A DNA stretch of 64,000 bases. Source: Oceanispirochaeta crateris. GTDB lineage: Bacteria; Spirochaetota; Spirochaetia; DSM-2461. Under the pieces are notes generated by a model. It made no database searches. It was not told the origin of the DNA and saw only the letters and a program-made list of their open reading frames with translations. Position numbers and translations under genes: made by a program. The stretch is taken from contig NZ_CP036150.1 in the NCBI RefSeq assembly GCF_008329965.1, positions 3,204,439 to 3,268,438 of the forward strand. The letters are read 5' to 3'. Positions within the stretch are counted from its first letter, which is position 1; each line of letters starts with the position of its first letter. Below, one piece after another: positions 9,670 to 33,373 of the stretch.

Positions 9670-10518
9670 TTATGCTACAACCTTTAATTGCTCCTCATAT
9701 TCCATAGGACTTTTGTAGTTCAATAAAGAATGTCGACGTTTACGATTATAGAATATCTCTATATATTCAAAAATACCAGATTTTAAATCATCAATGCGCT
9801 GAAAGTTATTTGGATAAACCATTTCTACCTTCAATCTGCTAAAAAATGATTCCATAGGCGCATTATCCCAACAATTTCCACGGCGACTGATGCTTAACTG
9901 AAATCCATGCCTATGAGCAAAATCGATATATTTTTGTGATCTGTATTGAACTCCTCTATCAGAATGAAGAATTGTATTCTCTGTGTCACCTCGTCTGCTA
10001 ATTGCGACTGATAAGGCCTCCATTATCAGTTCATAAGTCATGCTTGAACCCAGTGCCCAACCGACTATCTTTCTTGAGTAGAGGTCCATAACGACAGCAA
10101 GGTACATCCATCTATCCTTAACCCATATGTAAGTAATATCTGAAGTCCATTTTTCATTTATTGTGCTTGCCGAAAAGTTCCTCCATAAAATATTATCACT
10201 GACATTATTCATCGAGAGGCTTCTTTTGGGATATTTGAATCCTTTACCATTATGGGCCTTAATATCGCTGTCATGCATGATTTTAGCCACGTAATTGACA
10301 CTACAGCTATATCCCAGGGCTTTAAGTTCTTCAGTAATCCTTCTGGAGCCATACCTAGCTTTAAATTCTTCATAGGTATCCAGGATTCTCTTTTTAACCA
10401 CTCTCTTCTTATACTCATATGAACTCTCGGGGCTGTTAAACCATTGGTAATATCCTGATCTAGCTACGTTTAATGCCTTACACATAGTTTTAATTGAATA
10501 CTGGCCTTTATGATCCAA
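9670..10518 (-). CDS. IS3-family transposase OrfB (DDE integrase domain)
   Basis: Catalytic half of the transposase, 282 residues from the nominal start. An N-terminal HTH_21 segment (ARSGYYQWFNSPESS, RYGSRRITEELKALG) is followed by an rve DDE domain: WTSDITYIWVKDRWMYLAVV with the first Asp, LHSDRGVQYRS with the second, and CWDNAPMESFFSRLK with the catalytic Glu. It lies in the -1 frame relative to orfA, and that frame is open back through the A7G slippery run at 10565-10572. The functional protein is therefore probably an OrfAB fusion made by ribosomal frameshifting. All three acidic residues are present. Confidence 0.92.
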   Translation of the reverse strand: MDHKGQYSIKTMCKALNVARSGYYQWFNSPESSYEYKKRVVKKRILDTYEEFKARYGSRRITEELKALGYSCSVNYVAKIMHDSDIKAHNGKGFKYPKRSLSMNNVSDNILWRNFSASTINEKWTSDITYIWVKDRWMYLAVVMDLYSRKIVGWALGSSMTYELIMEALSVAISRRGDTENTILHSDRGVQYRSQKYIDFAHRHGFQLSISRRGNCWDNAPMESFFSRLKVEMVYPNNFQRIDDLKSGIFEYIEIFYNRKRRHSLLNYKSPMEYEEQLKVVA

Positions 10519-10532
10519 GATGGCTGCATATT

Positions 10533-10841
10533 TTACTTTTGGCCGTTCGCAAAATATGCAGCCACTTTTTTTAAGAATTCAATCTCATCTTTGAGTTTTT
10601 TATTCTCTCTTTTGAGTGCTCTTAGTTCATTAGATTCATCTTTTGAATAATCGACTCCAGCTAAAGTATTAAATTGTTTTTCACTGAGTCGGGTAAATTG
10701 TCTTTTCCAATTGTAAATTTGCTGAGCACTGATCCCTAATTCATCAGCAACGATCTTGGCAGAACTGCCTTCCAATTCTGACCGTCTGATTGCTTCTCTG
10801 CGAAAATCCTCTGTGTACGCTTGAGTTTTTTTTCTACTCAT
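10533..10841 (-). CDS. IS3-family transposase OrfA (helix-turn-helix)
   Basis: A 102-residue DNA-binding subunit with HTH_Tnp_1 sequence (YTEDFRREAIRRSELEG, IVADELGISAQQIYNWKRQF) and a leucine-zipper-like tail (LRALKRENKKLKDEIEFLKK). An A7G heptamer inside the LKK codons (10565-10572) is a classic -1 frameshift site, and reading -1 from there runs directly into OrfB. Confidence 0.92.
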   Translation of the reverse strand: MSRKKTQAYTEDFRREAIRRSELEGSSAKIVADELGISAQQIYNWKRQFTRLSEKQFNTLAGVDYSKDESNELRALKRENKKLKDEIEFLKKVAAYFANGQK

Positions 10842-11127
10842 TTGAAACTCCCTTATATAGTTTAATCTAACTTATAAAGGTGTCCAAATTTCGTGGGGCA
10901 GTCTGTTTATTAACGCCAAAACTCTGGCTGTCGCGTAATGACAATTGAATATGCGAGAAGAAAATCAGGACAGAAATATTGAATCTTTAAGGTGCTTCAA
11001 TATTTTAAGGAAATTGAATCATCAGAACTTCTGTATTTCTATTGTTGAAAACCGGGAAAATATTTGATTTCGTCATGTTCTGGAAACACCTGTCCCATGG
11101 TGAATGGTGATAGTTTTCCAAATTAGA

Positions 11128-11369
11128 TCAAGAGGCTCTGTAATAGTGGTGATAGAGGCCAAATCGTATTGGCATCTTCATAATTTTACCTGACGCAACT
11201 GGAGGTCTGTCTTCCGAAATGGAATGAATGCCTTGATACGGTCGATATTTATTATAATATTCCATGTAGGATTTCAGGATATTCCGCAATTGTTTTTCTG
11301 AGAAGATTGCAAACCAATCCAAGCATTCCTGACGGATGGATCTGCTGAACCTCTCAGCATATGCAATTT
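11128..11369 (-). pseudogene. C-terminal fragment of a DDE integrase joined to truncated istB
   Basis: Only the tail of an rve-type integrase remains: AYAERFSRSIRQECLDWFAI with the catalytic Glu region, then EYYNKYRPYQGIHS. The family belongs to a different transposase from the IS21 genes upstream. The fragment begins in the middle of istB near 11366-11372, where the two sequences meet in different frames. It is therefore a recombination or deletion scar, not a functional gene. Confidence 0.75.
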
Positions 11370-11899
11370 GCTTCTTTACGATCAATAGGCGTGTAGCCAA
11401 TTTCATCAATAATCAGAACATCTGCTTTCATGATCCGGTTAATTCGAAATGTGCTGGACCTTTGGACTTCCATAGTTTTCAGGAGTTTTATCAATGTCGT
11501 TATTCTTTCAAAACAGACTTTGTAACCTGCCTGGATCGCCTTCAAACCAAATTCGATGGACATATGGGTTTTCCCCAATCCGGGAGGTCCGAAAAAGAGA
11601 AGGTTTTCATGTTTATCAATCCACCTGAAATCCATTAGGTTTTTGACTTGCAGTTCCGTAATTCCTTCCAGTCTTGAAAAATCAAATGTCTCAAGTTCCT
11701 TGAAAACAGGAAAATGAGTGCCGGCCATATTCCTCTTCAATCTACGGTCAGTCCTGTAATCAATTTCACTACTGAGTAGTTCTTCCAGAAATTTTAGATG
11801 GGATAGATTTTCCTTTTCAGAAAGGTCATCCAGGGCTGAGACCATTCCTTTTAGGTTGAGGCTATCCATTACTCTAGTACAGTATTTAAAGTGGCTCAT
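11366..11899 (-). pseudogene. IS21-family helper ATPase istB, 3' truncated
   Basis: An AAA+ ATPase of the IstB/DnaC type. Walker A FFGPPGLGKT and Walker B DVLIIDEIGY are clear. Homology stops just after GYTPIDRKEAN at about residue 178, where a full protein should continue for about 70 more residues with sensor motifs. The rest is replaced by an unrelated integrase tail. Its start overlaps the istA stop by 4 bases, the usual IS21 coupling. Confidence 0.85.
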
Positions 11900-12983
11900 A
11901 GAGCACCTCCTAAGAGGCTAACAAGCGATGTGTAATAGGACATCTTCCGTTTTTCCACTTTAGGATTTCGGGATTCGCTCTTAATTTTGCGTACTCCGGA
12001 TAACAGTACTGGTAGAATATCCGGTTGTTGGTATTCCTCGATTCCCTTGAAGTACTGATATGCTTCTGCAAGATCATTAGCTGAATACTTACCACTATCA
12101 ATACAGAACTGAATTGCTGATTTTAATAATTCAGACTCATACCCATTATCTAAGAACTTGGAAAATACGTGATGCTGATCTCGAAAATACCGTGAAAACC
12201 GACTGTAGTTTCCTTCAATGAGATCCTCCCATTGTTCGTTATCTTTGAGCTTGCTCTTCAACTCTTTTTTCAGATCAGAAGCCTTCACAGAGGTATTTCT
12301 GAAATGATTTCTCTGGATTATGTTTTCTCCCGGTATAAGGGACAATCTGTGCCGAGCTATTTCCTTTCAATCCTGTGACCCATAAATGATTGGATTTTTG
12401 TGGGATCGATAAATCCATACTTTTCTCTTGAGATATTCCTGAGGTACTGAATATGAGCTCCCACCTACGCAGATCAAGCCTTTCTCTGAAACCTTCCTAT
12501 CTTCTCTTCCCAGGATCTGGTCTTTTCTGTAGATCGAAGAACGTATGGGAGACATCATTTCCTGTTCCCGCTCAAGAAGATTTCTGGGCACCATATCTGT
12601 TGCCTAACAGATCTTACCATTGGCTCTTCTCTCAAGCCAGCTATCCAGACGAGGAGAGATCTCTTCGAATGAATTGAATTGTCTGCCTGAGAAGAAACTC
12701 GTTTTCACGAACTTGACCAGATTCTCTACCTTCCCCTTTGACTCCGGATCTGCTTTTCGGCAGACATACAAAGAAAAACCCATCTCTTTTTTGAAATCCT
12801 TGAACTGTTTTGTCAGGATGATATCATCTTGATTTTCACTGACGACCAGAGCTCTGTCCTGATCGATTACTATTTCATGTGGGATACCTCCGATATATTC
12901 AAAACAATTCAAAAGGTGCTGAAATATATCGATTGTACGAAAGGGTGTATAGTGAGCCCTTTCGTCAACGCAACAACAGATAG
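11896..12983 (-). pseudogene. IS21-family transposase istA, 5' truncated with two in-frame stops
   Basis: One continuous frame reads as the C-terminal two-thirds of IstA. It begins with CCVDERAHYTPFRTIDIFQ and LLNCFEYIGGIPHEIVIDQ (rve domain), then KADPESKGKVENLVKFVKTS with the catalytic Glu, and ends with SYYTSLVSLLGG. Two in-frame stops break it: TAG at 12604-12606 and TGA at 12367-12369. The 5' part is missing; the frame abuts an IS3 element at about 12984, and no istA N-terminus appears on the other side of that element. Confidence 0.85.
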
Positions 12984-13008
12984 TTTTAAGGTGTATTCCT
13001 TCCCTTTA

Positions 13009-13848
13009 TTAAGCAGCTCTCATAACAGCTGACATAAATGTTCTATAGTAGATTTCGTCCGGTGTTTCATAATCCAGGGACTGATGAAATCTTTCCTTAT
13101 TGTAAAAATTGAAGTATCTGTTAACAGATGTTCTCAGTTCAATGATGCTGTCATAACTATGGAGGTAAATTTCTTCATACTTGAGAGTCCTCCACAATCG
13201 TTCTACATAAATATTATCCAGAGCACGACCTTTACCATCCATGCTAATTTGTATTCCATGCTCTTTTAGAACACCCACAAATGCGTCGGAAGTAAACTGG
13301 CTCCCTTGATCTGTGTTAAATATTGCAGGAATCCCATACTGCATAAGAGCCTCTTCTAGTGCATCGACACAAAAACTCACATCCATTGTATTTGAAATTC
13401 TCCAGGATAAGACCTTCCGGCTATATAGGTCTAGAACAGCTACCAAATACACAAAGTTATTGTTTATTTTTAGATAAGTCACATCTGTAGCCCAAACTTG
13501 GTTTGGAAACAGTATTCTTTTTCCTCTCAGCAAATAGGGATACTTCTTATGCTCCTTTCTGGCTTTAGAAAGGTTCCTCTTTGGGTAAATAGCACTCAAA
13601 CCCATCCTCTTCATAAGACGCCGTACTTGTTTTCTAGTAATCTTATAACCTTTATCATTCAATGCGACGGCGATCTTTCTATACCCATAGAATGGGGTTT
13701 TTCCTAACTTCTCTATAATTAGAATAATCATATCCAGTTCCCATGCCTCATTTGAATTTGTAGGCTTGTAATAGAAGCTTGAACGAGAGATATCAAGCAA
13801 CTTGCACTGTTTCTTGATTGAAAGATTCAAATTATCCGGTTCTATCAA
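13009..13848 (-). CDS. IS3-family transposase OrfB
   Basis: A 279-residue DDE transposase. HTH_21 segment: LSIKKQCKLLDISRSSFYY and YGYRKIAVALNDKGYKITR. Catalytic domain: VWATDVTYLKINNNFVYLVA (first Asp), IFNTDQGSQFTSDAFVGVLK (second Asp), RALDNIYVERLWRTLKYEEI (Glu). A TTG serves as nominal start. Relative to orfA it lies in the +1 frame, not the -1 frame used by IS3-type frameshifting; see the orfA entry. Confidence 0.88.
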   Translation of the reverse strand: MIEPDNLNLSIKKQCKLLDISRSSFYYKPTNSNEAWELDMIILIIEKLGKTPFYGYRKIAVALNDKGYKITRKQVRRLMKRMGLSAIYPKRNLSKARKEHKKYPYLLRGKRILFPNQVWATDVTYLKINNNFVYLVAVLDLYSRKVLSWRISNTMDVSFCVDALEEALMQYGIPAIFNTDQGSQFTSDAFVGVLKEHGIQISMDGKGRALDNIYVERLWRTLKYEEIYLHSYDSIIELRTSVNRYFNFYNKERFHQSLDYETPDEIYYRTFMSAVMRAA

Positions 13849-14149
13849 TCCGGATCGTGCCCGTACAGTTCCTTGTTCTTTTTTTTAGAAATTGATTCTC
13901 TACCTGTAATTGAACAATATTCTTATAGAGTTCGGACTCTTTCAATTCTGATTCAGAAATATTTGTCTTCTTTTTATTTGGCCGTTCAAATATATCCTCA
14001 ACACCATCCAAGAGATGCTTTTTCCATAGGCTGATCTGGTTTGCATGAATACCATAGAGCTGAGCTAACTCCTGTAAGCTCTTTTCACCACGGATAGCCT
14101 CAAGTGCTACCTTTGCCTTAAATTTCTTGTCGTAACTCTTTCGTTTCAT
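13832..14149 (-). CDS. IS3-family transposase OrfA with altered A-run
   Basis: A 105-residue HTH_Tnp_1 protein (KSYDKKFKAKVALEAIRGEK, YGIHANQISLWKKHLLDGV) with a zipper segment (LYKNIVQLQVENQFLKK). After LKK the frame continues RTRNCTGTIRIDRTG, which looks unlike an OrfA tail. The A-run at 13879-13886 is eight long. With nine As the -1 relation to orfB would be restored and the tail would read KNKELYGHDPD; with seven, orfA and orfB would be one frame. A single-base slippage in this copy is therefore likely. Confidence 0.78.
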   Translation of the reverse strand: MKRKSYDKKFKAKVALEAIRGEKSLQELAQLYGIHANQISLWKKHLLDGVEDIFERPNKKKTNISESELKESELYKNIVQLQVENQFLKKRTRNCTGTIRIDRTG

Positions 14150-14228
14150 AATAATAATTTATTCCTCCCAGATAATTGTTACAAGGAGAAACCCACCTTA
14201 AACCTGTGTCTTAATATCTGGGCTCATT

Positions 14229-14344
14229 ATAATGGTCTATGCCACTTCGGAACTGGACACCTGCTATGAATAGATTCGCCATAGAATATGAAGGGCGATT
14301 TGACATATGAAGAATGGGCTTTACACAAAAAACTTTACAGGCTC
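14229..14344 (+). repeat. IS256-family 3' end remnant (solo end)
   Basis: This stretch aligns with the last coding bases and right terminal repeat of the full IS256 copy at 33374-34700. Both share TGCCACT..GGA.ACCTGC.ATGAAT, a GAATATG.AG.GCGATTT block, and the terminal AACTTTACAGGCTC. Many substitutions show decay. It sits between two IS3 elements. Confidence 0.8.
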
Positions 14345-14362
14345 AAAAAAACGGAGTATCAG

Positions 14363-15247
14363 TTAAGCCACATTTCCCGTTTCATAATACTTACTTTCTT
14401 TCTCATCAGGAGTCAACCAATTATTTTCTGTGTGCTTCCTGATCCTGTTGTAGTAAATTTCAATATACCAATAAAGATCCTTATTCAATTCTTCCATCGT
14501 TCGGTATTTCCGGTGATAAATCAATCGTGTTTTCAGTGTATGAAAGAATGATTCTGCAACGGCATTGTCCCAACAATTTCCTTTTCGGCTCATACTTTGG
14601 ACAGCATCCACTGACTCTAAAAGGGATCTGAATTGTTCTGATGCATACTGGATACCTCGATCGCTATGAACAAGCATTCCCTTTGGATTATTATTCCGAT
14701 ATAGATATTTTTTAAAGGCATTACAGGTAGAGTCCGCAGAGAGACTTTTGTTAAGATCCCAGCCAACAACTTTACGAGAATAAAGGTCTATAAATACAGA
14801 TAAATACATCCACTTGGATGCAACCTTGATATATGTGATATCCCCAACTACGGCAACATTGGGCATTTCTGGATTAAAATGACGATTCAAAATGTTGTCA
14901 GGAATCCATTCTTTATGATCTGAATCTGTTGTAACGACAAACTGCTTCTGTATCTTGCATCTAAGCCCCATTTCCTTCATAAGAGCTGCTACACGGCTTC
15001 TATAGACAGTTTTATACTGAGGATCATCATGCAAATCCTCTGTGATCAAAGGACTTCCTGCCATTTGTTTGTGCTTAATATAAAAAAGCTCACTGATCTT
15101 GGTCATCAGTTTTTCTTTGGCTATCCTTCTGGAAGATTTTGATTGTCCTTGCCAGTCATAAAATCCGCTCTCAGAGACATTAAGATTATGGCACATTCTC
15201 ACCACCGGAAATTCAGAGCGACACTCTTGTATAAAGAAGTATTTCAT
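14363..15247 (-). CDS. IS3-family transposase OrfB
   Basis: A 294-residue DDE transposase: MCHNLNVSESGFYDWQGQSK (HTH_21), VVGDITYIKVASKWMYLSVF (first Asp), LVHSDRGIQYASEQFRSLLE (second Asp), CWDNAVAESFFHTLKTRLIY (Glu). Its ATG overlaps the orfA TGA (ATGA). The frame is open upstream through the A7G run at 15276-15283, so an OrfAB fusion by -1 frameshifting is expected. It looks intact. Confidence 0.91.
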   Translation of the reverse strand: MKYFFIQECRSEFPVVRMCHNLNVSESGFYDWQGQSKSSRRIAKEKLMTKISELFYIKHKQMAGSPLITEDLHDDPQYKTVYRSRVAALMKEMGLRCKIQKQFVVTTDSDHKEWIPDNILNRHFNPEMPNVAVVGDITYIKVASKWMYLSVFIDLYSRKVVGWDLNKSLSADSTCNAFKKYLYRNNNPKGMLVHSDRGIQYASEQFRSLLESVDAVQSMSRKGNCWDNAVAESFFHTLKTRLIYHRKYRTMEELNKDLYWYIEIYYNRIRKHTENNWLTPDEKESKYYETGNVA

Positions 15248-15549
15248 TTCGGTGTTTTGCTGAAAATGGCCAATGCTTTTTTTAATATATCGCGGTCCAT
15301 CTCTGCATCATAAAGCTGCTTTTCAAGATCTCGAATCTTTCTTTGATCAGGAGTCAAAGCCTCGATTCCATTACCAGGAAATGCCAAGTTACCATTTGTT
15401 GAAAGTTGACGCTTCCAGTTCCCAATCAAACCATTTGCAATTCCCAAGGATTGCTCTACGCTGTGAGCTGTCCGACCTGGTTCTTCTGAAAGTGCTATCG
15501 CGTTTCTTTTGAATTCTGCATCATAGCGACGTCTTTTTTTCTCATTCAT
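15244..15549 (-). CDS. IS3-family transposase OrfA
   Basis: A 101-residue HTH_Tnp_1 protein (RRYDAEFKRNAIALSEEPGR, EQSLGIANGLIGNWKRQL) with a coiled-coil tail (RKIRDLEKQLYDAEMDRDIL). An A7G slippery heptamer at 15276-15283 within the LKK codons directs -1 frameshifting into OrfB. Confidence 0.91.
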   Translation of the reverse strand: MNEKKRRRYDAEFKRNAIALSEEPGRTAHSVEQSLGIANGLIGNWKRQLSTNGNLAFPGNGIEALTPDQRKIRDLEKQLYDAEMDRDILKKALAIFSKTPK

Positions 15550-15862: not shown

Positions 15863-16456
15863 TCATCTATTTAGTTTTTCTCCTACAGCACCTCCAGGAT
15901 GTATGAGTGCAAACTGTTTTTCCTGATAGTCTATTTCCTCTATAAGCGCAGCTTGCAGGGAATCAAATATCACTGATAATACCACAAAACTGGTTGTACC
16001 CTGGCTGTTATATTTATCTGTTTCTCGTTGGACATGCATCTTGATTACAATATCTGAACCTAAAGACAAAGGGGATTCCATATTCTCTGTAATACTGATG
16101 ACAGTCACTTCTTTATTTTTGCAAATTTGCATAATTGGAAGTAATTCTGAAGTTTTACCACCTCGCGAAGCTAATATTATAACATCCCCTTTTTTTAAAA
16201 ATCCACTGGCTCCATGTACTGCCTCGGATGGAGAAATAAATCTTGCAGGTAGCTCAATACAGCACATCAAATGGGCAAAATGTTGACAGGCTATACCCGA
16301 ATGGCCACATCCGCTGGCAGCAATTCTTTCAGCTTTACTAAGAACATCCACTGCTTTCTCAAAAGCAGTTTTATTGATGGCCTTAAAGGTTTGTTTAATA
16401 GCATTAGACTCAATTGTAAATGATTCTTTGGCATATCCCCATGAACTAAGTTTCAT
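15863..16456 (-). CDS. SIS-domain sugar-phosphate isomerase-like protein (KpsF/GutQ-type)
   Basis: A 197-residue single SIS domain, the fold that binds phosphorylated sugars. The nucleotide/phosphate loop IAASGCGHSGIACQHFAHLM, the ILASRGGKTSELLPIMQICK segment and the C-terminal LIHPGGAVGEKL match the KpsF/GutQ/KdsD group of aldose-ketose isomerases. The CBS domains of full KdsD are absent, as in the short catabolic members. The ATG at 16456 has AAAGGG upstream. It is the last gene on the minus strand of the kinase cluster but is separated by 291 bp, so it may have its own promoter. Substrate unknown. Confidence 0.85.
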   Translation of the reverse strand: MKLSSWGYAKESFTIESNAIKQTFKAINKTAFEKAVDVLSKAERIAASGCGHSGIACQHFAHLMCCIELPARFISPSEAVHGASGFLKKGDVIILASRGGKTSELLPIMQICKNKEVTVISITENMESPLSLGSDIVIKMHVQRETDKYNSQGTTSFVVLSVIFDSLQAALIEEIDYQEKQFALIHPGGAVGEKLNR

Positions 16457-16469
16457 TATTTACCCTTTC

Positions 16470-16494
16470 CTGATAATCCTTAATTATTTATCAG
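16470..16494. promoter_or_regulatory. Palindrome in the leader of the SIS gene
   Basis: CTGATAA (16470-16476) and TTATCAG (16488-16494) form a 7-bp inverted repeat with an 11-base spacer, 14-38 bases ahead of the SIS start. The TGATAA half-site recurs ahead of the DeoR gene and the ABC binding-protein gene, so this could be a DeoR operator. Confidence 0.4.
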
Positions 16495-16747
16495 ATTCCT
16501 CTATTTCATACTCTTCACATTTTATTACTAAATATTGCAGTTATCATATCATCATTTCTGGTTTAAAGATGAAGGCTCACATTTCTGGGATGTATTTGTC
16601 CCAAGGGAATGATAAAATATAGTAAAGACCGATCAATAAACTTTTATTTTAGGTACTATTAATTGGGAGCTCTCTATTTCTTCTACTACCTTAACCTGTC
16701 TGCAATGATGTACAAGCCAGGTAAGGAAGTGTAATAATGGTTTCTCT

Positions 16748-17251
16748 CTATTCTCCCATAACCTGAACCTGACAAGTTCTCTTTCTAGCCCGAACTTGGT
16801 CCCAGTCTATAAAATAGATGTATCCAAAATCACCAAGTTGTAATTCTCCATCTACAATCAAAATAGTTTCTGATCGTCCAAAAAAAACAGAACGGAGATG
16901 TGCCTCTGTATTCAGACTTGTCCACTCTCCTTCTTCAGAACCAAGGCTCATGGCAAAATCTATATGTTCCTTCCCTGGGTGCATGTACTGCCCTTCGACC
17001 CGACAAGTGGGTATCAGTTTCTCCATAACATTACAAAGATCCTGTTGCAAAAACTCTAGTCCGAAATATGTCTTGTCATGGGAACATTCCTGGGTCATTA
17101 CAGAACATGTTGTGTGGTGAGAATAGACAACACAAGTTCCATTTTTAATACCTGAATTTTCTACCATCCCTTTTACCTTCTTAGTTACATCATGGAACGT
17201 AGGATGCAGACCATCTGATTGCATTTCAAATCTTTCATTTAATACTTTCAT
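16748..17251 (-). CDS. YjbQ/UPF0047 family protein, copy 1
   Basis: A 167-residue UPF0047 protein. Family members have secondary thiamine-phosphate-synthase activity, but the physiological role is unclear. The family signature is seen as VVYSHHTTCSVMTQE, FLQQDLCNVMEKLIP, SLNTEAHLRSVFFGRSE and ELQLGDFGYIYFIDWD, including the metal-binding histidines of the SHHTT and AHLR motifs. It follows a paralogue at 17318-17815 and is about 60 per cent similar by eye. Association with sugar kinase and isomerase genes suggests a role in carbohydrate metabolism. Confidence 0.88.
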   Translation of the reverse strand: MKVLNERFEMQSDGLHPTFHDVTKKVKGMVENSGIKNGTCVVYSHHTTCSVMTQECSHDKTYFGLEFLQQDLCNVMEKLIPTCRVEGQYMHPGKEHIDFAMSLGSEEGEWTSLNTEAHLRSVFFGRSETILIVDGELQLGDFGYIYFIDWDQVRARKRTCQVQVMGE

Positions 17252-17317
17252 ATTATTTCTCCTTAATATTTAAAAAACAGAATTTTATTTTGATGCTCCT
17301 TATCATTGAAGTTAAGG

Positions 17318-17815
17318 TTATTCACCAATAATCTGTACATATACCTTTCGTTCACGAGCACGAGTATGATCAAAATCAACAAAATAAATATGCCCGAATT
17401 CTCCCAATTCCAGATTCCCTTCTATAATCGGGATGGTCTCGCTTCGCCCGACAATAGATGATCTGAGATGGGCATCAGTGTTGAGTGTTCCTGGTTTATC
17501 TTCACCATGTTCGGCTGCAAAGACTGTAAGCTCCGGCCCGGGATGCATGTACTGTCCTTCTTTGCGGCATGTCGGGATTATTTTCTCAAATACATCTGTG
17601 AGATCCTGTTGAAGAAATGTCATACCTGTATAAGCTTTGTCAAAAGAGTCTTCATCGATCATTACAGAACATGTGGTATGACGTGAATAGATCAGACACA
17701 TACCATTTTTCACTTGTGAAACTTCTACAATTTCCTTTACTTTCTCGGTAAGGGTATGAAAAGTTGGTCTCATTCCTGTAGATTTTACTTTAATTGTTTC
17801 ATTTGTTATTTTCAT
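17318..17815 (-). CDS. YjbQ/UPF0047 family protein, copy 2
   Basis: A 165-residue paralogue of the downstream copy with the same motifs: LIYSRHTTCSVMIDEDS, FLQQDLTDVFEKIIPTCRKE, TLNTDAHLRSSIVGRSE and ELGEFGHIYFVDFD. SRHTT replaces SHHTT. It overlaps the upstream TIM-like gene by 4 bases, so it is translationally coupled to it. A tandem duplication retained with divergence suggests either different substrates or a hetero-oligomer. Confidence 0.88.
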   Translation of the reverse strand: MKITNETIKVKSTGMRPTFHTLTEKVKEIVEVSQVKNGMCLIYSRHTTCSVMIDEDSFDKAYTGMTFLQQDLTDVFEKIIPTCRKEGQYMHPGPELTVFAAEHGEDKPGTLNTDAHLRSSIVGRSETIPIIEGNLELGEFGHIYFVDFDHTRARERKVYVQIIGE

Positions 17816-18543
17816 TTCTTATGTCCTTTCGATTTCTCAAGTTCATCTTTTGCTTTTCTGACGTTGTATACCATCTCATCCAGTAGTTTGTAAGGATCTG
17901 GAGAGTTCAATATTCCCGATGCGGAACCTGCAGCGTCATTTCCAGCCATAATGAAATCATATATCTGACGACCAGTTGTTATTCCTGCTGCCTGTTCTAC
18001 TAAAATATTTGGAAAAATTTCTTTGACAACCTTGAGGGTCTCTACCACATAATCCATATTACTTGCCTGATCTGTTCCAATGAGCTCACTTGGTTCGGGG
18101 TTAATAATATCAGGCTGAAACTGGGCAATTGCTTTTGTCTCTGAAATGGAATCAGCGCAAGCAAAAGTAATCAAGCCAAGCTCGTTGGCTCGGTCTATGG
18201 TTCTTTTTATTTGAGGCAGGGTCATGGGTCTTTCACAGTGGTTAAGCATGACACCTTTTGCCCCTGCACTTTTAATAGCTTCGGGTAATACATCTGCGAT
18301 TCCCCGGCCCGGTTTTAAGGTATCCATATAGGGGGCAAATACAAAAATACGATCTGTATTTTCTGCAATCCTTCTGATTTCTGTATAGGGAGCAATAAAA
18401 ATTGCATCAACGTCATACTTCTTGGCCGCAGCATCAACTGCCAGGGCATAGTTATAGACATCATCTCCAAAAATATAGTTTTTTACACTAGTTTCAAAAA
18501 ATGGGGGTTTAGGTAATATTTTCTGTATTTCTCTTTTATTCAT
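17812..18543 (-). CDS. Triosephosphate-isomerase-like protein (archaeal type)
   Basis: A 243-residue TIM-barrel protein resembling the shorter archaeal triosephosphate isomerases. The three catalytic residues are recognisable: Lys21 in SVKNYIFG, His102 in LNHCERP and Glu150 in NPEPSELIGT. A phosphate-binding QAAGITTG and GSASGIL follow. The Cys in NHCER and Asp in IGTD differ from the canonical NHSER and IGTG, hinting at a related substrate, as in tetrulose-phosphate isomerases of polyol pathways. It sits between an FGGY kinase (17 bases upstream) and YjbQ, so it probably isomerises the kinase-derived phosphate. The housekeeping TpiA is presumably elsewhere. Confidence 0.82.
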   Translation of the reverse strand: MNKREIQKILPKPPFFETSVKNYIFGDDVYNYALAVDAAAKKYDVDAIFIAPYTEIRRIAENTDRIFVFAPYMDTLKPGRGIADVLPEAIKSAGAKGVMLNHCERPMTLPQIKRTIDRANELGLITFACADSISETKAIAQFQPDIINPEPSELIGTDQASNMDYVVETLKVVKEIFPNILVEQAAGITTGRQIYDFIMAGNDAAGSASGILNSPDPYKLLDEMVYNVRKAKDELEKSKGHKK

Positions 18544-18560
18544 ATCAATCTCCTATTGAT

Positions 18561-20033
18561 TCAGCTGTCTATTTCAAAATGTTTTATATAGTCTTTATAT
18601 ATTTTCTGATAAAGTTTACTGCGAACCGGGTCTGGTTCAATTATCAATTCCTGAGATTTGGTCTGCTCATAAGCATCATGTTCGTCAGAGTATAGGCCAA
18701 CACCAATTCCTGCGAGCATAACAGCTCCCATGGCTCCTGCATGCTGTCCTGTTTCTGGGATGACAATTGGCTGGCCAGAAACATCGGCTAGTATGGAAGG
18801 CCAGATAGAACTTTTTGTAGGACCACCTGTTAGCACAATTCTATCAATCGGCTTACCTGTCAGACTGGTAAGTTTTTCTATTCGGTTCCGGATAAGAAAT
18901 ACTATTCCTTCCATAAGTGCCCTTGCGATGTTTTTAGGTTGGATATCTTTTAATTGATCCTTCATTTGGATATAGGGTTGTTTGAATAGTTCAATGTACA
19001 ATCCATCAGCCCCTGGTTCCGCTTCCGATGCCAAACGGTCATATCTGGCAAATAGCGATTCATCCTCATTGGATCCAATACAGTTTACAAGATACTCTTC
19101 CATCTTTTCAGCAATTCCCGTCAGAGCAACCATCGATCCCCAGCAGCCGGCAGGGGATAGAAAGGGGTCTACCAACATTTTCCATTTCAATGCGGTTTCT
19201 CTATTCCTGACAGGTGAAAATGCCACCCATGAGGTTCCTGCCGAGATTAATACATTCCCTTCTTCAAAAACACCAGTACTTCTGGCTGCAGAGGGATGGT
19301 CAAAGGAACCAGTTACAATTTGAGTTTTAGTTTGAAGTCCTGTCATCTCAGTTATTTCTGGCATTATAGTCCCGCAAGCAGTTCCTGATGGAAGCATTTC
19401 TGCCAAATCATTGTCAGTAATATTTAGTAAATCAAGAAGAGATGTGTTCCAAAGACTCTTAACCTGGTCAAATAGAAAAAAGGTCGTTGCCTTAGAATAA
19501 TCAACTGCCAGCCGTCCGCAGAGGCGGTAGTAGATATAGTCGTTGAGCATCGAAAAATGCCTTGTTTTCTTCCATAATTCCGGTTTGTAATGCTTGTACC
19601 ATGAAAGGTGGGCTAATGGAAAAGTTCCTTTGAAAGGCCATCCCGTGGAGTAATACAATTTTTCCAGGTCAAGTTCAGACCAGAGTTCCATTTTTGTTCC
19701 AGCTGTTCTCCTATCCATCCAGCTGATAGCATTGTCCAGGGGTAAGTAATTCTCATCAAGGATTATTGTGTTCCCGCTGGCACCACTGAAACTTAGGGCT
19801 TTAATATTTTCAGCTTGATTTGTATTTTTAACAAATTCTCTAATTATCGAACATATGTCTTGGAAATAGCCCTCAGGGTCTATTTCAACCCTGGATTCGG
19901 CTGGGTGGTGTAAATTAACTGGACGACTGGTCTGTTCGATAATTTTACCATTAGTATTTGAAAGCAGTGCCTTTATGGTACTCGTGCCAAGATCAAATCC
20001 AATAAGAAGATCACCTTTGTCTCTTTTGATCAT
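18561..20033 (-). CDS. FGGY-family carbohydrate kinase
   Basis: A 490-residue sugar kinase of the xylulokinase/gluconokinase superfamily. Domain I starts with GFDLGTSTIKALLSNTNGK (phosphate loop); SFSGASGNTIILDENYLPL and SWMDRRTAGTK form the sugar-binding region; the C-terminal FGGY signature region reads DRIVLTGGPTKSSIWPSILA, followed by GQHAGAMGAVMLAGIG. All expected parts are present. It heads a minus-strand operon kinase-TIM-YjbQ-YjbQ, transcribed from the promoter at 20169-20210. The sugar cannot be identified from sequence. Confidence 0.92.
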   Translation of the reverse strand: MIKRDKGDLLIGFDLGTSTIKALLSNTNGKIIEQTSRPVNLHHPAESRVEIDPEGYFQDICSIIREFVKNTNQAENIKALSFSGASGNTIILDENYLPLDNAISWMDRRTAGTKMELWSELDLEKLYYSTGWPFKGTFPLAHLSWYKHYKPELWKKTRHFSMLNDYIYYRLCGRLAVDYSKATTFFLFDQVKSLWNTSLLDLLNITDNDLAEMLPSGTACGTIMPEITEMTGLQTKTQIVTGSFDHPSAARSTGVFEEGNVLISAGTSWVAFSPVRNRETALKWKMLVDPFLSPAGCWGSMVALTGIAEKMEEYLVNCIGSNEDESLFARYDRLASEAEPGADGLYIELFKQPYIQMKDQLKDIQPKNIARALMEGIVFLIRNRIEKLTSLTGKPIDRIVLTGGPTKSSIWPSILADVSGQPIVIPETGQHAGAMGAVMLAGIGVGLYSDEHDAYEQTKSQELIIEPDPVRSKLYQKIYKDYIKHFEIDS

Positions 20034-20168
20034 TATTAGGAAGCTCCTGTGTTTTCTATTGAAAAATTATCAATTCTGAGTTCGTCGATGCCTAGTATTA
20101 TTCTTTTAAATTACCAGACTATGAATGCTCTTCAACTGACTCATATATTAATTAGGATGTTCTGATTT

Positions 20169-20210
20169 AATCTATTATTTTACCATTTTAAGATTGAGTC
20201 AAGCATATTA
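20169..20210 (-). promoter_or_regulatory. Promoter element of the kinase operon, shared with the isomerase operon
   Basis: On the minus strand a -35 TTGACT (20202-20197) and a -10 AATAAT (20179-20174) are separated by exactly 17 bases. The whole 42-bp block is identical at 37 of 42 positions to 30105-30146, ahead of the isomerase operon. Such conservation beyond the hexamers suggests a shared regulator site as well as a promoter. Confidence 0.65.
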
Positions 20211-20798: not shown

Positions 20799-21590
20799 AT
20801 GTCAAAAATCGAGAAAAGACAAAAGAAACTTTTAGATTTACTACAGATATATAAACGGATAGATATTTCACAAGTCTCAAAATGGTTAGATATTTCTGAA
20901 ACAACTGCGCGAAGAATGTGTTCGAAGCTAGAAGAAGACCAGAAGGTTATTCGTGTACATGGAGGAGTTCAACTAACTGAACAGTTTCTGAATGAGTTTT
21001 CTTATCAAAGTAAAGAGCTGAAACAACTGCACGAAAAAGTCTCAATAGGAAATTATAGCGCGTCACTTATCACTTCAGGTGACCGAATCTACTTAGATTC
21101 AGGTACTACAATCCACCAGTTTGCTATGGCTTTGATCAACCGGATAAAGAAGCAGGAATTTCAAGATCTTGTTGTTATTACGAACTCTCTAGCTAATTTT
21201 GATCCTTTGGCAGAGTATTGTAAGGTTATATTAGTTGGTGGTGAAGTACGTCTTCCGAGATTGGATGTTTGCGGATCAATCTCAGAAGAAATCATTAGCA
21301 AGTTTCATATCACTAAAGCCTTTTTGGGGGTGGATGGAGTACATATTCAGAAAGGATTCATGACTACTGATGAGCGGACTTCTACCTTGAATAAGCTTAT
21401 CTTAGCTGATGTTGATGAGGCTTATATCCTTTGTGACTCCACTAAATTCGGAAAAACATCTTTTATGGCATATGCCCAGCCTGACGAAGTAAAGAATGTT
21501 GTTACCGACTGGAACTTAGCAGATAAAACTGCAGAGATTTTCACTCAGGCAGGTTTTCCTTTGGTGATTACCGATGAAACTATCGTTTAG
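20799..21590 (+). CDS. DeoR-family transcriptional regulator
   Basis: A 263-residue regulator with an N-terminal DeoR helix-turn-helix (KRQKKLLDLLQIYKRIDIS, SKWLDISETTARRMCSKLEE, VIRVHGGVQL) and a C-terminal DeoRC sugar-phosphate sensor domain (DRIYLDSGTTIHQFA, VILVGGEVRLPRLDVCG, FLGVDGVHIQKGFMTTDE). DeoR proteins usually repress sugar operons until a phosphorylated intermediate binds. It lies between the kinase operon on the minus strand and the ABC importer genes on the plus strand, the natural position for a regulator of both. Confidence 0.93.
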   Translation: MSKIEKRQKKLLDLLQIYKRIDISQVSKWLDISETTARRMCSKLEEDQKVIRVHGGVQLTEQFLNEFSYQSKELKQLHEKVSIGNYSASLITSGDRIYLDSGTTIHQFAMALINRIKKQEFQDLVVITNSLANFDPLAEYCKVILVGGEVRLPRLDVCGSISEEIISKFHITKAFLGVDGVHIQKGFMTTDERTSTLNKLILADVDEAYILCDSTKFGKTSFMAYAQPDEVKNVVTDWNLADKTAEIFTQAGFPLVITDETIV

Positions 21591-22001
21591 AACTACTAGG
21601 TTTTCTGATTAGGGAACTATTGCAAAAATTTTAACTACTCAATCAAAAAACACTCCTTATTAGTCTAAAGTATATTTACTTTTAGAATTAATAATTGTGA
21701 ACCTCTCCAACGTTTGACCATTTTGAGGTCATGGGAATCAATTTCTCATTATTTCTTATTTCCATTGCTATAAAATGAATAAATCAGAGATTTTTGAATA
21801 ATTAGTTGTATTTGTAAAATAATATTATCTATGCATTAAGTATTCCTAAATTTAAGGAATTACATTTTTTATCAAAACCCTAAAAATGGCCGTTTCGTTC
21901 ATATTTTGACTAATTCAAGAATAATAAAAATTGACAACCGACTGATATGGTGATAATTTGAAGTTAAGCCATGTCTAATGGTCTATCACAAGGAGGAACT
22001 G
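21591..22001. other. Intergenic region ahead of the ABC importer operon
   Basis: AT-rich, with the importer promoter at 21931-21959 and a TTATCA at 21869-21874. No gene is seen. No obvious terminator follows deoR. Confidence 0.6.
21931..21959 (+). promoter_or_regulatory. Promoter of the ABC importer operon
   Basis: A perfect -35 TTGACA (21931-21936) and a -10 TAATTT (21954-21959) are 17 bases apart. A TGATAA half-site (21951-21956) overlaps the -10, and a TTATCA lies upstream at 21869-21874, which would suit DeoR control. Confidence 0.6.
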
Positions 22002-23282
22002 GTGAAAAAGATTATTGTCTTTATACTGCTTATAAGCGGTATTGGTTTTCTATGGGCTAATGGAGAAAATGAAACTGCTAACGGACCTGTTACATTGAGG
22101 ATAATGTCTCCAGCAAGTGATTTCACCGATGAGTGGATTGAGTCTTGGAATTCTGAAAATCCCAATATTCAGGTAGTTAGAGAAGACCTGGATCAGACTA
22201 AGTGGATTGCTGATTATATTGGTGGTTCATCTGCTGATATTATAAATTTAGGAAGTGGTGCTGAAGTTCCATATTTCGTGAAGAGAGGGATGCTCTATGA
22301 CCTAACAGACTATATTAATTCCAGCGAATTACTGAAAGATGATATTGATCTTGAAGGCTCAGGGGCTTACCTCTTTGAAGATTCATGGTATGGCTTACCA
22401 AAAGATTATAACAATGTTACTGCTATTACTTATAATAAAGAATTATTTGATAAAGCAGGCCTTCCGTACCCCAGTGCAACTGAACCGATGACATATAATG
22501 AATTCGAAACGTTGGCGAAGGAACTTTCTGCGATAGATGCGAGTGTGTTTGGTACTGAAGTTCACGGGAATTGGTTTTTGTATATGGCGGGTGATATGGC
22601 ATATATGATTAATAAAAAATTACACACTGATGGACAATCCAAAATGAATAATGATCCAGAAGTGAGAGATATCTGGAAAACTTTCCTGAGATGGAGAAAA
22701 GAAGGAATTAGCAGTAATCTGAAGAACCCTATTAGTGGTTGGGCAGGGTCTGCGTTTCAGGCAGGGAATATTGCCATGGTCCAATTAGGCTATTGGTATG
22801 GTGCATCCTGTAGTGCTGTTGACGGATATGATGAAAAGTTTGGTTGGGCACCTGCTCCTGTTATGGAAAAGGGCGGAAAGCGAGTAACAAATAGTTTAGG
22901 TGCTACTGGATTTATTGTAAGTTCACAGACCAAGTATCCGGATCAAGCATTTAAAGTATTTGAATGGTACATGGCTGGTGAGCCTGGAAAAGAACGAGCT
23001 GAAACAGGATGGGGAATCCCTCCTCTAAAGTCTCTGCAAACATTACTTCCATATGATAATGATTTCAACAAAGTACGTAAAGATATTGCAATGGAAGAGG
23101 TTAAATATATGATGCCTCCACAAACTTCTTGGTATGCAAGAAATAATGTCTATGCGGGCAACTGGAAAGCAGCAGAAAATGCCTATTTAAGAAATGAAGT
23201 GACTGAGGATGGTGCTATTGATATGTTCTTTAAATCAATGAATGAAGCTTTTGCTTTTGGAAAAGAAGAAGTTGGTGAATAA
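22002..23282 (+). CDS. ABC transporter sugar-binding protein
   Basis: A family 1 extracellular solute-binding protein, 426 residues. The GTG at 22002 is chosen because AGGAGG lies 5 bases upstream; the in-frame ATG at 21978 has none and would add eight residues before the signal peptide. The signal reads VKKIIVFILLISGIGFLW, then ANGENETANG, a spirochaete-like export signal. Later hallmarks are WIESWNSENPNIQVVRED, AITYNKELFDKAGLPYP, the AGNIAMVQLGYW segment and SLGATGFIVSSQTKYPDQAF. It would deliver a sugar or oligosaccharide to the two permeases downstream. No ATPase gene is adjacent, so a shared MsmK-type ATPase elsewhere is probable. Confidence 0.9.
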   Translation: MKKIIVFILLISGIGFLWANGENETANGPVTLRIMSPASDFTDEWIESWNSENPNIQVVREDLDQTKWIADYIGGSSADIINLGSGAEVPYFVKRGMLYDLTDYINSSELLKDDIDLEGSGAYLFEDSWYGLPKDYNNVTAITYNKELFDKAGLPYPSATEPMTYNEFETLAKELSAIDASVFGTEVHGNWFLYMAGDMAYMINKKLHTDGQSKMNNDPEVRDIWKTFLRWRKEGISSNLKNPISGWAGSAFQAGNIAMVQLGYWYGASCSAVDGYDEKFGWAPAPVMEKGGKRVTNSLGATGFIVSSQTKYPDQAFKVFEWYMAGEPGKERAETGWGIPPLKSLQTLLPYDNDFNKVRKDIAMEEVKYMMPPQTSWYARNNVYAGNWKAAENAYLRNEVTEDGAIDMFFKSMNEAFAFGKEEVGE

Positions 23283-23404: not shown

Positions 23405-24340
23405 ATGGTAAAAGAAAAGAATAGAAAGAATCTGATTGAGAAGGAAAAGAGGTTATCCTTCTACTGTTTCATGTCTCTATGGATTCTTGGTTTTGCAATC
23501 TTTCAATTGATTCCAATATTCTGGGGTTTTAGAGTCAGTCTCACAAATCAGATGGCATTTTCTGTTCAAACAAAATTCGTAGGTTTTGCAAACTATATAA
23601 CAGTTTTTCAGGATCCAACTATATTTGTTTCTATCACATATACATTGCTGTTTGCGCTCTTAACTACAATCTTGCAGGTGCTAATAGGTTTTATACTGGC
23701 AATGCTTGTTGAGAAGTATTTCATAATGCAAAGTTTTTTTAGGGTCATGTTTTATCTTCCCTATGTTATTCCTATCGTCGCTACAGGTTGGATATTTCGA
23801 GTTTTTCTGGATAAGAATGTGGGAACATTAAATATATTCCTCACACAGATACACCTGATTTCTGAGAATGTGAGCTGGCTTGGTGAGTATGGTTTATTAT
23901 CGATTCTCATGGCGAATTTCTGGAGAGTAGGCTGGAGTATGCTTATCTTCATTGGAGGACTTTCAACTATTCCAAGGGATCTTTATGATGCCGCATCTGT
24001 CGATGGTGCGGGCTATGTAAAAAAAATGATGATCATTACTATACCCTTTGTCAGTCCTTTTATCGCCTTTCAGATGGTTGTTAGTTTTATTTATGGAATG
24101 CAAGTTTTTATTCTGCCTTATATCCTCAATCCTGCAGCTATACGTGGTGCTCAAGTTACTGCTGAGGCTCCCCCAAAAGAGACGTTCTTCATACTTGCGA
24201 AAGGGTATGACCTCATTTTTAATAAAGGTCGTTTAGCTTATGGGTTTGCAGTATTATGGGTAACATTCATTATTGTGCTTATGTTCAGCCTGATCTATAC
24301 ACGCATGGTCAAAAAAATGACCTATTCAGAGGTGGAGTAA
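23405..24340 (+). CDS. ABC sugar permease, MalF/UgpA type
   Basis: A 311-residue inner-membrane permease with six predicted helices. The first segment is FMSLWILGFAIFQLIPIFWG. The EAA loop that contacts the ATPase is LYDAASVDGAGYVKKMMIIT (usually EAAxxDGA; here DAASVDGA). The AGGAG upstream supports the ATG at 23405. It forms a heterodimer with the next gene, three bases downstream. Confidence 0.92.
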   Translation: MVKEKNRKNLIEKEKRLSFYCFMSLWILGFAIFQLIPIFWGFRVSLTNQMAFSVQTKFVGFANYITVFQDPTIFVSITYTLLFALLTTILQVLIGFILAMLVEKYFIMQSFFRVMFYLPYVIPIVATGWIFRVFLDKNVGTLNIFLTQIHLISENVSWLGEYGLLSILMANFWRVGWSMLIFIGGLSTIPRDLYDAASVDGAGYVKKMMIITIPFVSPFIAFQMVVSFIYGMQVFILPYILNPAAIRGAQVTAEAPPKETFFILAKGYDLIFNKGRLAYGFAVLWVTFIIVLMFSLIYTRMVKKMTYSEVE

Positions 24341-24343
24341 TCT

Positions 24344-25183
24344 ATGGAAACCAAGTCACAGAAAAGACTGATAATGTCCGCAAAATATGTTGTTTTAAGT
24401 GTTCTACTATTACTCTTCTTTTTACCTCTCATCAGTATGGTCAGTGTCTCTTTGAAAGCTGAGAGTGAGATTTTTATGAAAACTGGGAAACTATTTCCAG
24501 AAAAGCTACATTTTGAAAACTACTTCAATGCTGCTACAAGAATCGATTATTTGAGATTTGTGTACAATTCATTGATCGTAGCTGTGATGTATACGGTTAC
24601 TTGTACCTTATCGAGTGCTATGGCCGGGTATGCCTTGGCACGGTTTCATATCAAAGAGAATAACCTATTCTTCACTATTGTACTCTCTTCAATTATGATA
24701 CCCTATGTTATTACTCTTATTCCATTTTATCTTCTTGTTAAGAATATGGGATTGACTGATAAACATGTTCTGTGGTTGATCTATGGTTTGGGTGGCGCTC
24801 CCTTTATGATATACCTCTATAAACAGTTTTTTTCAACAATCCCACAATCCTTTGAGGAATCAGCTCGCATAGATGGTGCTAGACGTTTTCAAATTTTCTT
24901 CCAAATCATGATGCCTCTAGTAAAGTCCGGCACTATCATAACAGCAATCTTTGCCTTCCAGTTTACCTGGCAGAACTATATCATGCCAGCATTGTTTTTA
25001 AGCTCATTGAAGACTACTCTAGCAGTGAAGATTAATGGTGCCTATGTTGATATACAGCAAAATATTCTTCTGGGTGAACTTATGGCAGGGGTCATATATT
25101 ACATCGGGATACCAGTTCTCCTGTTCTTTGTTTTTCAAAAATATATTATGAGAGGAATGCTCGAGGGAGGAGTGAAAGGTTAG
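24344..25183 (+). CDS. ABC sugar permease, MalG/UgpE type
   Basis: A 279-residue permease with the second-permease pattern: LLLFFLPLISMVSVSLKAE first helix, MAGYALARF, and the EAA loop FEESARIDGARRFQIFFQIM. It closes the importer block. The stop is followed within 75 bases by a decayed URO-D-family gene in the same orientation. Confidence 0.92.
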   Translation: METKSQKRLIMSAKYVVLSVLLLLFFLPLISMVSVSLKAESEIFMKTGKLFPEKLHFENYFNAATRIDYLRFVYNSLIVAVMYTVTCTLSSAMAGYALARFHIKENNLFFTIVLSSIMIPYVITLIPFYLLVKNMGLTDKHVLWLIYGLGGAPFMIYLYKQFFSTIPQSFEESARIDGARRFQIFFQIMMPLVKSGTIITAIFAFQFTWQNYIMPALFLSSLKTTLAVKINGAYVDIQQNILLGELMAGVIYYIGIPVLLFFVFQKYIMRGMLEGGVKG

Positions 25184-25256: not shown

Positions 25257-25830
25257 ATGGTGAGATCGGTCTTAACGAATGAGGGTTCATTGGCCTTGCT
25301 CATAATTCCTCGGGTTTTTAATGACCTGTTTGCAAATTGTAACTCTTTTGATGTGATCTTTGAGAAGAATACTGATGATCTCTATAGTAAACAAATTGTT
25401 CAGTTTTGTGACAATTTACCCTTATTAGAACCCTGGTTTGGGACATTATCCCATCCAGTGGCGTTTATGGTCTGATGAAGCCGCTCCCGATACGATTCAT
25501 GCATATCATTCATTTGATGACATCAATACTCTTAATTGTATGACATCTCCTTCTATACAGATGATCTTGGATACTATAGATATGTTAAAAGAGCGAACAA
25601 AGGAGTTGATCCCTATATTCTCGACAAGTAAACAATTACAGAAGGATAAAGCAACACTCATCCTTGATACCACAGAGTTCATAACTGATATGTATACTGA
25701 TTCTGAAAATGTACATGCTTTGTCGGAGACGATTACTAAAATGATAATTGAATTTTCTTATCAAGAAGAGGGTACTCCAGAAAATTATATTTCTATAAAA
25801 AATTGTATGGAGGATTGGTTTGGACAATAA
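25257..25830 (+). pseudogene. URO-D/MtaA-like protein, frameshifted and truncated
   Basis: Two overlapping frames read as one protein. The first, 25257 to about 25468, gives ALLIIPRVFNDLFANCNSF and DNLPLLEPWFGTLSHPVAF. The second, to 25830, continues WSDEAAPDTIHAYHSFDDI and ATLILDTTEFITDMYTDSEN, then VHALSETITKMIIEF. The pattern resembles uroporphyrinogen-decarboxylase-superfamily proteins (TIM barrels that include cobalamin-dependent methyltransferases). The frame breaks near 25467. The product would end at about 190 residues, well short of the ~340 normal for the family, and the MBL gene begins inside its end. A sequencing error could explain the frameshift but not the missing C-terminus. 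Confidence 0.62.
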
Positions 25831-30021: not shown

Positions 30022-30435
30022 CAATGATCTCCTTATCTTAAAACTACTTTGCAGAAAGTCCTAATTCCTTTTAATTGAGATAAAGGACGAAGAACTTCTG
30101 TTTCAATCTATTATTTTACTATATTAAGCCTGAGTCAAGCATATTTTGCATGAATTGCTCATTACTTCAAAAATTTGATTTAATAAATATAAATCATACT
30201 CATTTTCTCTACTTTACAATTTCATTATCAATATGTGGGAAGGGGCCTATCGGAAACTAAAACTTCTAGCAATGTAAAATAAATTGAGCTATGTAACTCC
30301 TAAAAAATATAAAAACGTAATAAAACTTTTTATCATCACTTGGAGGAAGATTTGATTATCCTATTTCTGAATAGAACCTTTTCTATGGATTTTGAGAAAA
30401 TTTTGTTGTCACTAATAGATTCAAAAATTAATTTT
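30022..30435. other. AT-rich intergenic region ahead of the isomerase operon
   Basis: Contains the promoter element at 30105-30146. From 30150 to 30435 the sequence is AT-rich without a recognisable gene or clear terminator. Confidence 0.6.
30105..30146 (-). promoter_or_regulatory. Promoter element of the isomerase operon (second copy)
   Basis: TTGACT (30138-30133) and AATAAT (30115-30110) with a 17-base spacer on the minus strand, in a 42-bp block 37/42 identical to that ahead of the kinase operon. Transcription would start near 30103, about 80 bases before the isomerase ATG. Confidence 0.65.
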
Positions 30436-33368: not shown

Positions 33369-33373
33369 AAAAA

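Follow-up and report, generated by a model that had tools for sequence, protein, structure and literature searches.

A possible place for long YjbQ proteins in a ketose phosphate pathway of Oceanispirochaeta crateris

What two YjbQ (UPF0047) proteins are doing in a sugar operon is the question raised by a stretch of 64,000 nucleotides from Oceanispirochaeta crateris (contig NZ_CP036150.1, positions 3,204,439 to 3,268,438), referred to below, at its whole length, as the window. Both are encoded beside a homologue of the archaeal-type triose-phosphate isomerase (TIM). A section of a 2021 review (PMC7954711) gives YjbQ/UPF0047 as a family of unknown function, and in passages of open-licence PMC papers we found neither YjbQ, UPF0047 nor the family product name tied to a sugar pathway; a search of such papers for YjbQ together with a kinase and a triose-phosphate isomerase also gave nothing. 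The answer that we favour, while giving it somewhat less than an even chance, is that the TIM homologue, which bears a serine at position 10, moves the carbonyl group within a ketose 1-phosphate, and that YjbQ, standing in the place of RpiB, completes the conversion to a phosphate of central metabolism together with a SIS-domain isomerase.

The kinase operon and the pairing of TIM with long YjbQ

The genes concerned lie on the minus strand in the order FGGY kinase, TIM, YjbQ1, YjbQ2, SIS:

18561-20033, minus strand: FGGY-family sugar kinase, 490 amino acids (aa), matching PF00370 and PF02782
17812-18543, minus strand: archaeal-type TIM homologue, 243 aa; NF003302 at 151 bits against a cut-off of 132
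17318-17815, minus strand: YjbQ1, long UPF0047 protein, 165 aa; PF01894 at 107 bits, TIGR00149 at 93.2 bits
16748-17251, minus strand: YjbQ2, long UPF0047 protein, 167 aa; PF01894 at 97 bits, TIGR00149 at 81.1 bits
15863-16456, minus strand: SIS-domain sugar-phosphate isomerase, KpsF/GutQ-like, 197 aa; PF01380 at 64 bits

Both YjbQ copies, which are 59% identical to each other, exceed the two family cut-offs (27 bits for PF01894 and 67.75 bits for TIGR00149). Family matches and gene layout confirm an earlier account made from the letters of the stretch (the sequence-only reading), which had described an operon with an FGGY kinase, an archaeal-type TIM homologue and two YjbQ proteins. Its statement that both YjbQ genes are translationally coupled to TIM holds for YjbQ1, whose gene shares 4 bp with that of TIM, and fails for YjbQ2, because the latter begins 66 bp after YjbQ1. 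A gap of 291 bp precedes the SIS gene, whose membership of the operon is therefore putative; this gene, though inside the segment that the sequence-only reading covered, was missing from its account, as were the amidohydrolase described below and the position of YjbQ at the place of RpiB.

The proposal to look for the same set in other genomes was fruitful, since a scan of a genome collection returned 24 loci across several phyla (Kiritimatiellia, Verrucomicrobia, Maribellus, Sphaerochaeta, another spirochaete, Clostridia and Christensenella). Their neighbourhoods repeat the amidohydrolase, FGGY, TIM, YjbQ1, YjbQ2 and SIS genes at varying completeness, with or without an AraA-like gene, and a long YjbQ was found in all 21 of the genomes searched from these loci, in at least two copies in 17. 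When the four closest loci (L015, L016, L019 and L020) were compared with the window, identity was 83-88% for TIM, 84-90% for YjbQ2, 74-84% for YjbQ1 and 69-80% for SIS; it was 50-66% for the FGGY kinase, 26-52% for the amidohydrolase and 22-42% for the AraA-like protein, which was not found in L019. Because the core proteins are 69-90% identical across phyla while the front end varies, a variable front end seems to channel different sugars to one conserved core that would handle a shared phosphate.

Among 398 genomes of Bacillota (counts of genomes, not of independent events), a long YjbQ occurs in 12, the TIM homologue occurs in the same 12, and the two genes are adjacent. Among 392 genomes of the window's own phylum, a long YjbQ occurs in three, all of which also carry the TIM homologue. 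In these two YjbQ-led surveys, 17 of 17 YjbQ matches adjoin a TIM gene. Over all loci examined, most of which were found via TIM, 52 of the 56 YjbQ open reading frames (ORFs) lie within 1.5 kb of a TIM gene, 45 of them within 150 bp. Distances among the TIM and among the YjbQ proteins are correlated (r 0.77 over 38 pairs, with 0 of 2000 permutations as high), a correlation that shared ancestry alone may produce. Co-occurrence and adjacency with TIM support the earlier placement of YjbQ inside a sugar-phosphate pathway. Three Bacillota loci have TIM, YjbQ, HxlB and Rpe in this order. Going by their names, the last two catalyse a shift or an inversion at C3 of a ketose phosphate, HxlB converting a 3-ketose phosphate to the 2-ketose form; a separate SIS protein in L076 passes the HxlB model TIGR03127 at 205 bits against a cut-off of 160. 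Shinella plasmids, the clearest case of YjbQ at the position of RpiB, carry an SDR, a TIM-barrel sugar isomerase/epimerase, TIM, YjbQ and FGGY.

The predicted structure of YjbQ1 matches 1vmj with Z 18.5, and entries of the YjbQ family (1vmj, 2p6c, 1xbf) were recovered at Z 15.1 to 18.5; the next matches of the fold search, at Z of about 4, were capsid folds and further beta folds, and were uninformative. The polar residues common to long and canonical YjbQ are His46, Glu55, Asp71, His116, Arg152 and Arg154. Unlike the solved structures and the canonical copy of its own genome, the long YjbQ has inserts at 59-65 and 92-108, adjoining the conserved Tyr89, Asn112 and His116, and Cys49 in place of Ala. 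The canonical copy is encoded separately, without this TIM beside it, and of 14 well-known genomes taken as controls, 10 contain the family.

Some of the loci showed peculiarities of their own. In L021 (7980-9209), TIM and YjbQ1 are read as a single 409-aa ORF, either a fusion or a sequence error, while in L020, a near relative, the two occupy different frames. Operons with a phosphotransferase system (PTS), class II aldolase, TIM and YjbQ are found on plasmids of Lacticaseibacillus paracasei and Enterococcus faecium (L088, 5366-10199; L089, 5984-10196), and L080 (2501-10721) and L084 (3507-9618) have a sorbitol-type (GUT) PTS, a DRL-family oxidoreductase, class II aldolase, TIM and YjbQ. A distant TIM in L041 (6867-16237) lies with a ribulokinase-like FGGY, a ribose-type ABC transporter and a DeoC/LacD-family aldolase, in the absence of YjbQ, and resembles the layout of the autoinducer-2 (AI-2, Lsr) locus. 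A malK-I RNA motif (Rfam, 146.8 bits) is present near the Christensenella copy of the cluster (L028, 5537-5719, minus strand). One further cluster, c12, was discarded as a spurious antisense ORF across TIM-YjbQ.

Position 10 of the TIM homologue and the place of RpiB

The model of the window TIM (pLDDT 93) superposes on 1hg3 with Z 31.9 and a root-mean-square deviation (rmsd) of 1.4 over 219 aligned residues, as would be expected of the fold of archaeal TIMs (1hg3, 1w0m, 2h6r). The protein is 35% identical to 1hg3 and, by alignment to it and by our motif table, retains the catalytic Lys, His and Glu that are present in every covered TIM homologue. Unlike the archaeal enzymes, it has a loop 6 about three residues shorter, a different genomic context, and serine at position 10 (N-x-K motif) in place of the asparagine of ordinary and archaeal-type TIMs; here positions 10, 12, 95 and 165 follow what we take to be the TIM numbering. 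The sequence-only reading had seen an altered active-site neighbourhood in the motifs NHCER and IGTD. A changed residue does exist, in the form of N10 to Ser, whereas these motifs, in which the catalytic His and Glu are unaltered, are not where the diagnostic change lies.

Residue 10 is Ser in 17, Gly in 16 and Asn in nine of 43 TIM homologues, one being truncated. The carriers of Asn10 are all eight homologues from loci with a PTS and class II aldolase, plus that of L041; Gly10, seen in the SIS/FGGY and HxlB loci, might at a guess stand for larger substrates. The same change recurs in a second TIM lineage: among 16 bacterial-type TIMs (15 opened from 40 listed records, picked by organism and annotation and not randomly, plus the tpiA of the genome itself), Ser10 is found in nine of nine that adjoin RpiB and Asn10 in seven of seven others. 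The nine come from seven Rhizobiales, one Enterococcus and one Arthrobacter, with one gene intervening in L115, and their Ser-bearing motifs read GTSWKMN, GTSFKMN, GISLKLY and GVSLKMY. One of them matches the solved L-erythrulose-1-phosphate isomerase 11ef at 475 bits, and another, in Rhizobium, adjoins the 3-oxo-isoapionate-4-phosphate decarboxylase OiaX. The window TIM thus has the Ser10 of L-erythrulose-1-phosphate isomerase (EryH/LerI), by a rule that was derived in this analysis from the same nine of nine.

L-erythrulose 1-phosphate differs from dihydroxyacetone phosphate (DHAP) by an added hydroxymethyl group, attached to the carbon from which the proton is removed. If Asn10 touches the substrate, as we presume, a smaller residue there could make room for this group; a literature search on what Asn10 does in TIM was of no help. 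Being found in two TIM lineages, Ser10 predicts a ketose 1-phosphate as the substrate of the window TIM, which, because N10 has become Ser as in L-erythrulose-1-phosphate isomerase, probably acts on something other than triose phosphate. The assignment as a non-housekeeping TIM appears fairly firm from the shared residue change and the gene context, and the genome carries an ordinary tpiA besides.

Beside the Ser10 TIM of erythritol and apionate loci, as beside L-erythrulose-1-phosphate isomerase, stands a partner of the RpiB type; in the window YjbQ stands there, and RpiB was found in none of the loci carrying the archaeal-type TIM homologue or long YjbQ. Passages of two papers describe what is expected there: LerI followed by DerI is an established pair, with proteins of the RpiB type given for the second step (PMC10733421), and tpiB-rpiB, in the order eryR-tpiB-rpiB, forms a module of erythritol loci (PMC3599248). 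The window resembles the erythritol catabolism of Brucella and Rhizobium (EryABC-EryH-EryI) in its FGGY kinase, Ser10 TIM, adjoining second small isomerase gene and DeoR regulator. It differs in having an archaeal-type TIM with YjbQ where the erythritol loci have a bacterial-type TIM with RpiB (the bacterial-type 11ef is 17% identical to the window TIM, and superposes on its model with Z 23.0 and an rmsd of 2.1 over 212 aligned residues), and in having an AraA-like isomerase and SIS where those loci have a dehydrogenase and no SIS. In the tetritol module of LerI and DerI, too, a second isomerase acts after one for a ketose 1-phosphate; this second enzyme is DerI, an activity also suspected for Escherichia coli RpiB, and the relevant passages of that paper make no mention of YjbQ (PMC10733421). 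With EltD, LerK, LerI and DerI, an E. coli tktAB double mutant dependent on erythrose 4-phosphate grows on L-threitol (PMC10733421).

A proposed route and its alternatives

The route that we propose begins with a second minus-strand group, about 8 kb from the kinase operon and tied to it by a shared promoter block:

28651-30024, minus strand: AraA-like aldose/ketose isomerase homologue, 457 aa; PF11762 at 48.6 bits
27553-28599, minus strand: amidohydrolase (PF04909), 348 aa, which clusters with kinase/TIM/YjbQ genes in other genomes
20160-20209, minus strand: promoter block upstream of the kinase operon
30096-30145, minus strand: the other copy of this block, preceding the AraA-like gene

The two blocks are identical at 44 of 50 positions, and a 41-bp core, searched with a pattern derived from these same two sites, has exactly two matches at up to three mismatches across the 4.0-Mb genome (0 in the reversed control), which upholds the earlier claim that the AraA-like operon shares the promoter element. 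A promoter-like TTGACT-17-AATAAT is present in both copies, although the region is not richer than shuffles in such matches as a class. The shared block and the same set of genes in other phyla support the view of one co-regulated pathway.

The identity of the sugar is not readable from the AraA-like, kinase and SIS families, each match being under its equivalog cut-off. The AraA-like protein scores 95 bits against the L-arabinose isomerase equivalog (NF002795, cut-off 622); aligned to 7cwv, it appears to keep Glu333, His350 and His450, which we take to be AraA metal ligands, while the position of the fourth is ambiguous. The kinase has XylB as its best NCBIfam match (255 bits, cut-off 380), falls short of xylulokinase (TIGR01312) and the other FGGY equivalogs, and has AI-2 kinase and xylulokinase as its nearest solved structures. 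The SIS protein scores 107 bits against KpsF/GutQ (TIGR00393, cut-off 203.7) and 58.7 bits against HxlB (6-phospho-3-hexuloisomerase, TIGR03127, cut-off 160), and matches the solved structure 3fxa at 144 bits. For the amidohydrolase, no close solved structure was found at E 0.001.

In the proposed route, the AraA-like protein would convert an aldose into a ketose, which the FGGY kinase would phosphorylate, most simply at C1. The Ser10 TIM would then move the carbonyl of the ketose 1-phosphate from C2 to C3, as EryH/LerI does on L-erythrulose 1-phosphate, YjbQ, at the position of RpiB (EryI/DerI), would make the next carbonyl shift, and the SIS isomerase a further one. In this way the sugar would enter the pentose-phosphate pathway as a phosphorylated D-ketose or D-aldose, with no aldolase encoded in the cassette: D-erythrose 4-phosphate from a tetrose, D-pentulose 5-phosphate or D-fructose 6-phosphate from a pentose or hexose. 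The internal carbonyl shift is assigned to YjbQ by elimination, because YjbQ holds the place of RpiB, RpiB is absent and HxlB and Rpe are neighbours in three loci. By analogy, the module may be a tetrulose-type isomerase module with YjbQ for RpiB and a tetrose as its possible substrate, and the tetrose suggested by the sequence-only reading is a reasonable one. More tentative is the stronger version, in which the long YjbQ proteins, as sugar-phosphate isomerases of a new fold class, have replaced RpiB and, with the Asn10-changed archaeal-type TIM and SIS, walk the carbonyl along a ketose 1-phosphate until a phosphate of central metabolism is reached.

In E. coli, overproduction of YjbQ relieves a pdxB block, by a route suggested in a section of the review to enter upstream of SerC (PMC7954711); this would fit an enzyme of four-carbon phosphates and proves nothing. 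If the stronger version of the route is true, a UPF0047 protein would have its first physiological function, and different phyla would share a way to use rare tetroses, pentoses or hexoses that needs no aldolase. Enzymes would also be named for the use of rare sugars, possibly tetroses, whose transporters and kinases are called unreported in a passage of a 2025 paper (PMC12780249). Since its TIM partner was constant in the Bacillota survey, its chemistry can be predicted and a bacterial assay strain is already established, the orphan YjbQ family becomes directly testable.

Several observations weigh against the carbonyl shift by YjbQ. We know of no YjbQ that is an isomerase, and RpiB genes exist elsewhere in the same genome. 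Four long YjbQ ORFs have no TIM nearby (L052, where YjbQ2 adjoins an AraA-like gene and the amidohydrolase, L053, L056 and L048, where the contig end is near), and conversely the genome G327, of the window's phylum, has a distant TIM homologue without YjbQ. Long YjbQ also stands beside Asn10-keeping TIMs in the eight PTS and class II aldolase loci, where a plain role of TIM on DHAP and glyceraldehyde 3-phosphate is possible, and extra assumptions would be needed to bring them under the same scheme.

Alternatively, YjbQ could be no isomerase itself and act as a ring-opening or mutarotase-type helper that offers the open-chain ketose phosphate to TIM. It is a small protein adjoining an isomerase that needs an open-chain substrate, and genes of DUF4432, presumably mutarotase-like, occur near some of the clusters. 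However, we regard such a helper as unlikely, since RpiB-type pathways manage without one, and it would leave both the absence of RpiB and the retention of two YjbQ unexplained.

The eight PTS-type loci lend themselves to another explanation, namely that the TIM homologue is an additional triose-phosphate isomerase, taking up the DHAP that an aldolase sets free, with YjbQ as an accessory: class II aldolase lies beside TIM and YjbQ in all eight, as it does on the Lacticaseibacillus and Enterococcus plasmids, Asn10 is kept throughout the eight, and the window protein, too, has lost none of its catalytic Lys, His and Glu. For the window we hold this to be quite unlikely, since an aldolase is missing from its cassette (the genome has a single PF01116 gene, at 921122, outside the window), its TIM carries Ser10 and belongs to a clade separate from the PTS/aldolase TIMs, and tpiA is present.

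Adjacency, co-occurrence, the correlation of r 0.77 and the joint ORF of L021, which could be a sequencing or frameshift matter, would also suit a YjbQ that is a non-catalytic, structural partner in one complex with the TIM homologue; the conserved polar residues look catalytic, though, and canonical YjbQ occurs without this TIM, making such a partnership improbable. The branched sugar of the sequence-only reading, for instance apiose, with TIM acting on a branched tetrulose phosphate, gained no positive evidence and seems very improbable: TIM and RpiB do follow OiaX in Rhizobium, but that locus has RpiB and not YjbQ, and neither OiaX nor a transketolase is among the cassette genes. Finally, a supply of thiamin phosphate by YjbQ, in keeping with the TIGR00149 family name and with a weak thiamin-phosphate synthase activity that YjbQ reportedly has, can hardly be credited, as the window, L015, L019 and L028 showed no thiamin pyrophosphate riboswitch, the scanned neighbours included no thiamin gene, and the genome has its separate canonical YjbQ.

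Genomic setting of the sugar region

Further genes of the sugar region are encoded on the opposite strand:

20799-21590, plus strand: DeoR-family regulator (PF00455 and PF08220), divergent from the kinase operon
21978-23282, plus strand: solute-binding protein (PF01547)
23405-25183, plus strand: two ABC permease genes, from ORF reading and a match to permease clusters

Between the ABC transporter and the amidohydrolase (25438-26593), a weak uroporphyrinogen-decarboxylase/methyltransferase-like fragment of 130 aa overlaps a metallo-beta-lactamase-fold gene.

The sugar region (15.9-31.6 kb) is bordered on both sides by transposase genes (IS3-type rve, IS21 IstB and Mutator family), at 9670-15549 and 31846-36540. 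Our sample contained one more genome from the genus and one from the family, and both lacked the TIM homologue. The flanking transposases, together with a TIM that is 83-88% identical to those of other phyla, suggest that the region is a transferred island.

Beyond the second set of transposases lies another carbohydrate cluster (36698-47047), in which ORF reading gave a GntR-like regulator, tripartite tricarboxylate transporter-like genes, two SDR-like genes, split transketolase-like genes (41517-43300) and a hydroxyacid dehydrogenase-like gene, while the family scan found metallo-beta-lactamase-fold and TAL_FSA-family proteins at 45171-46205.

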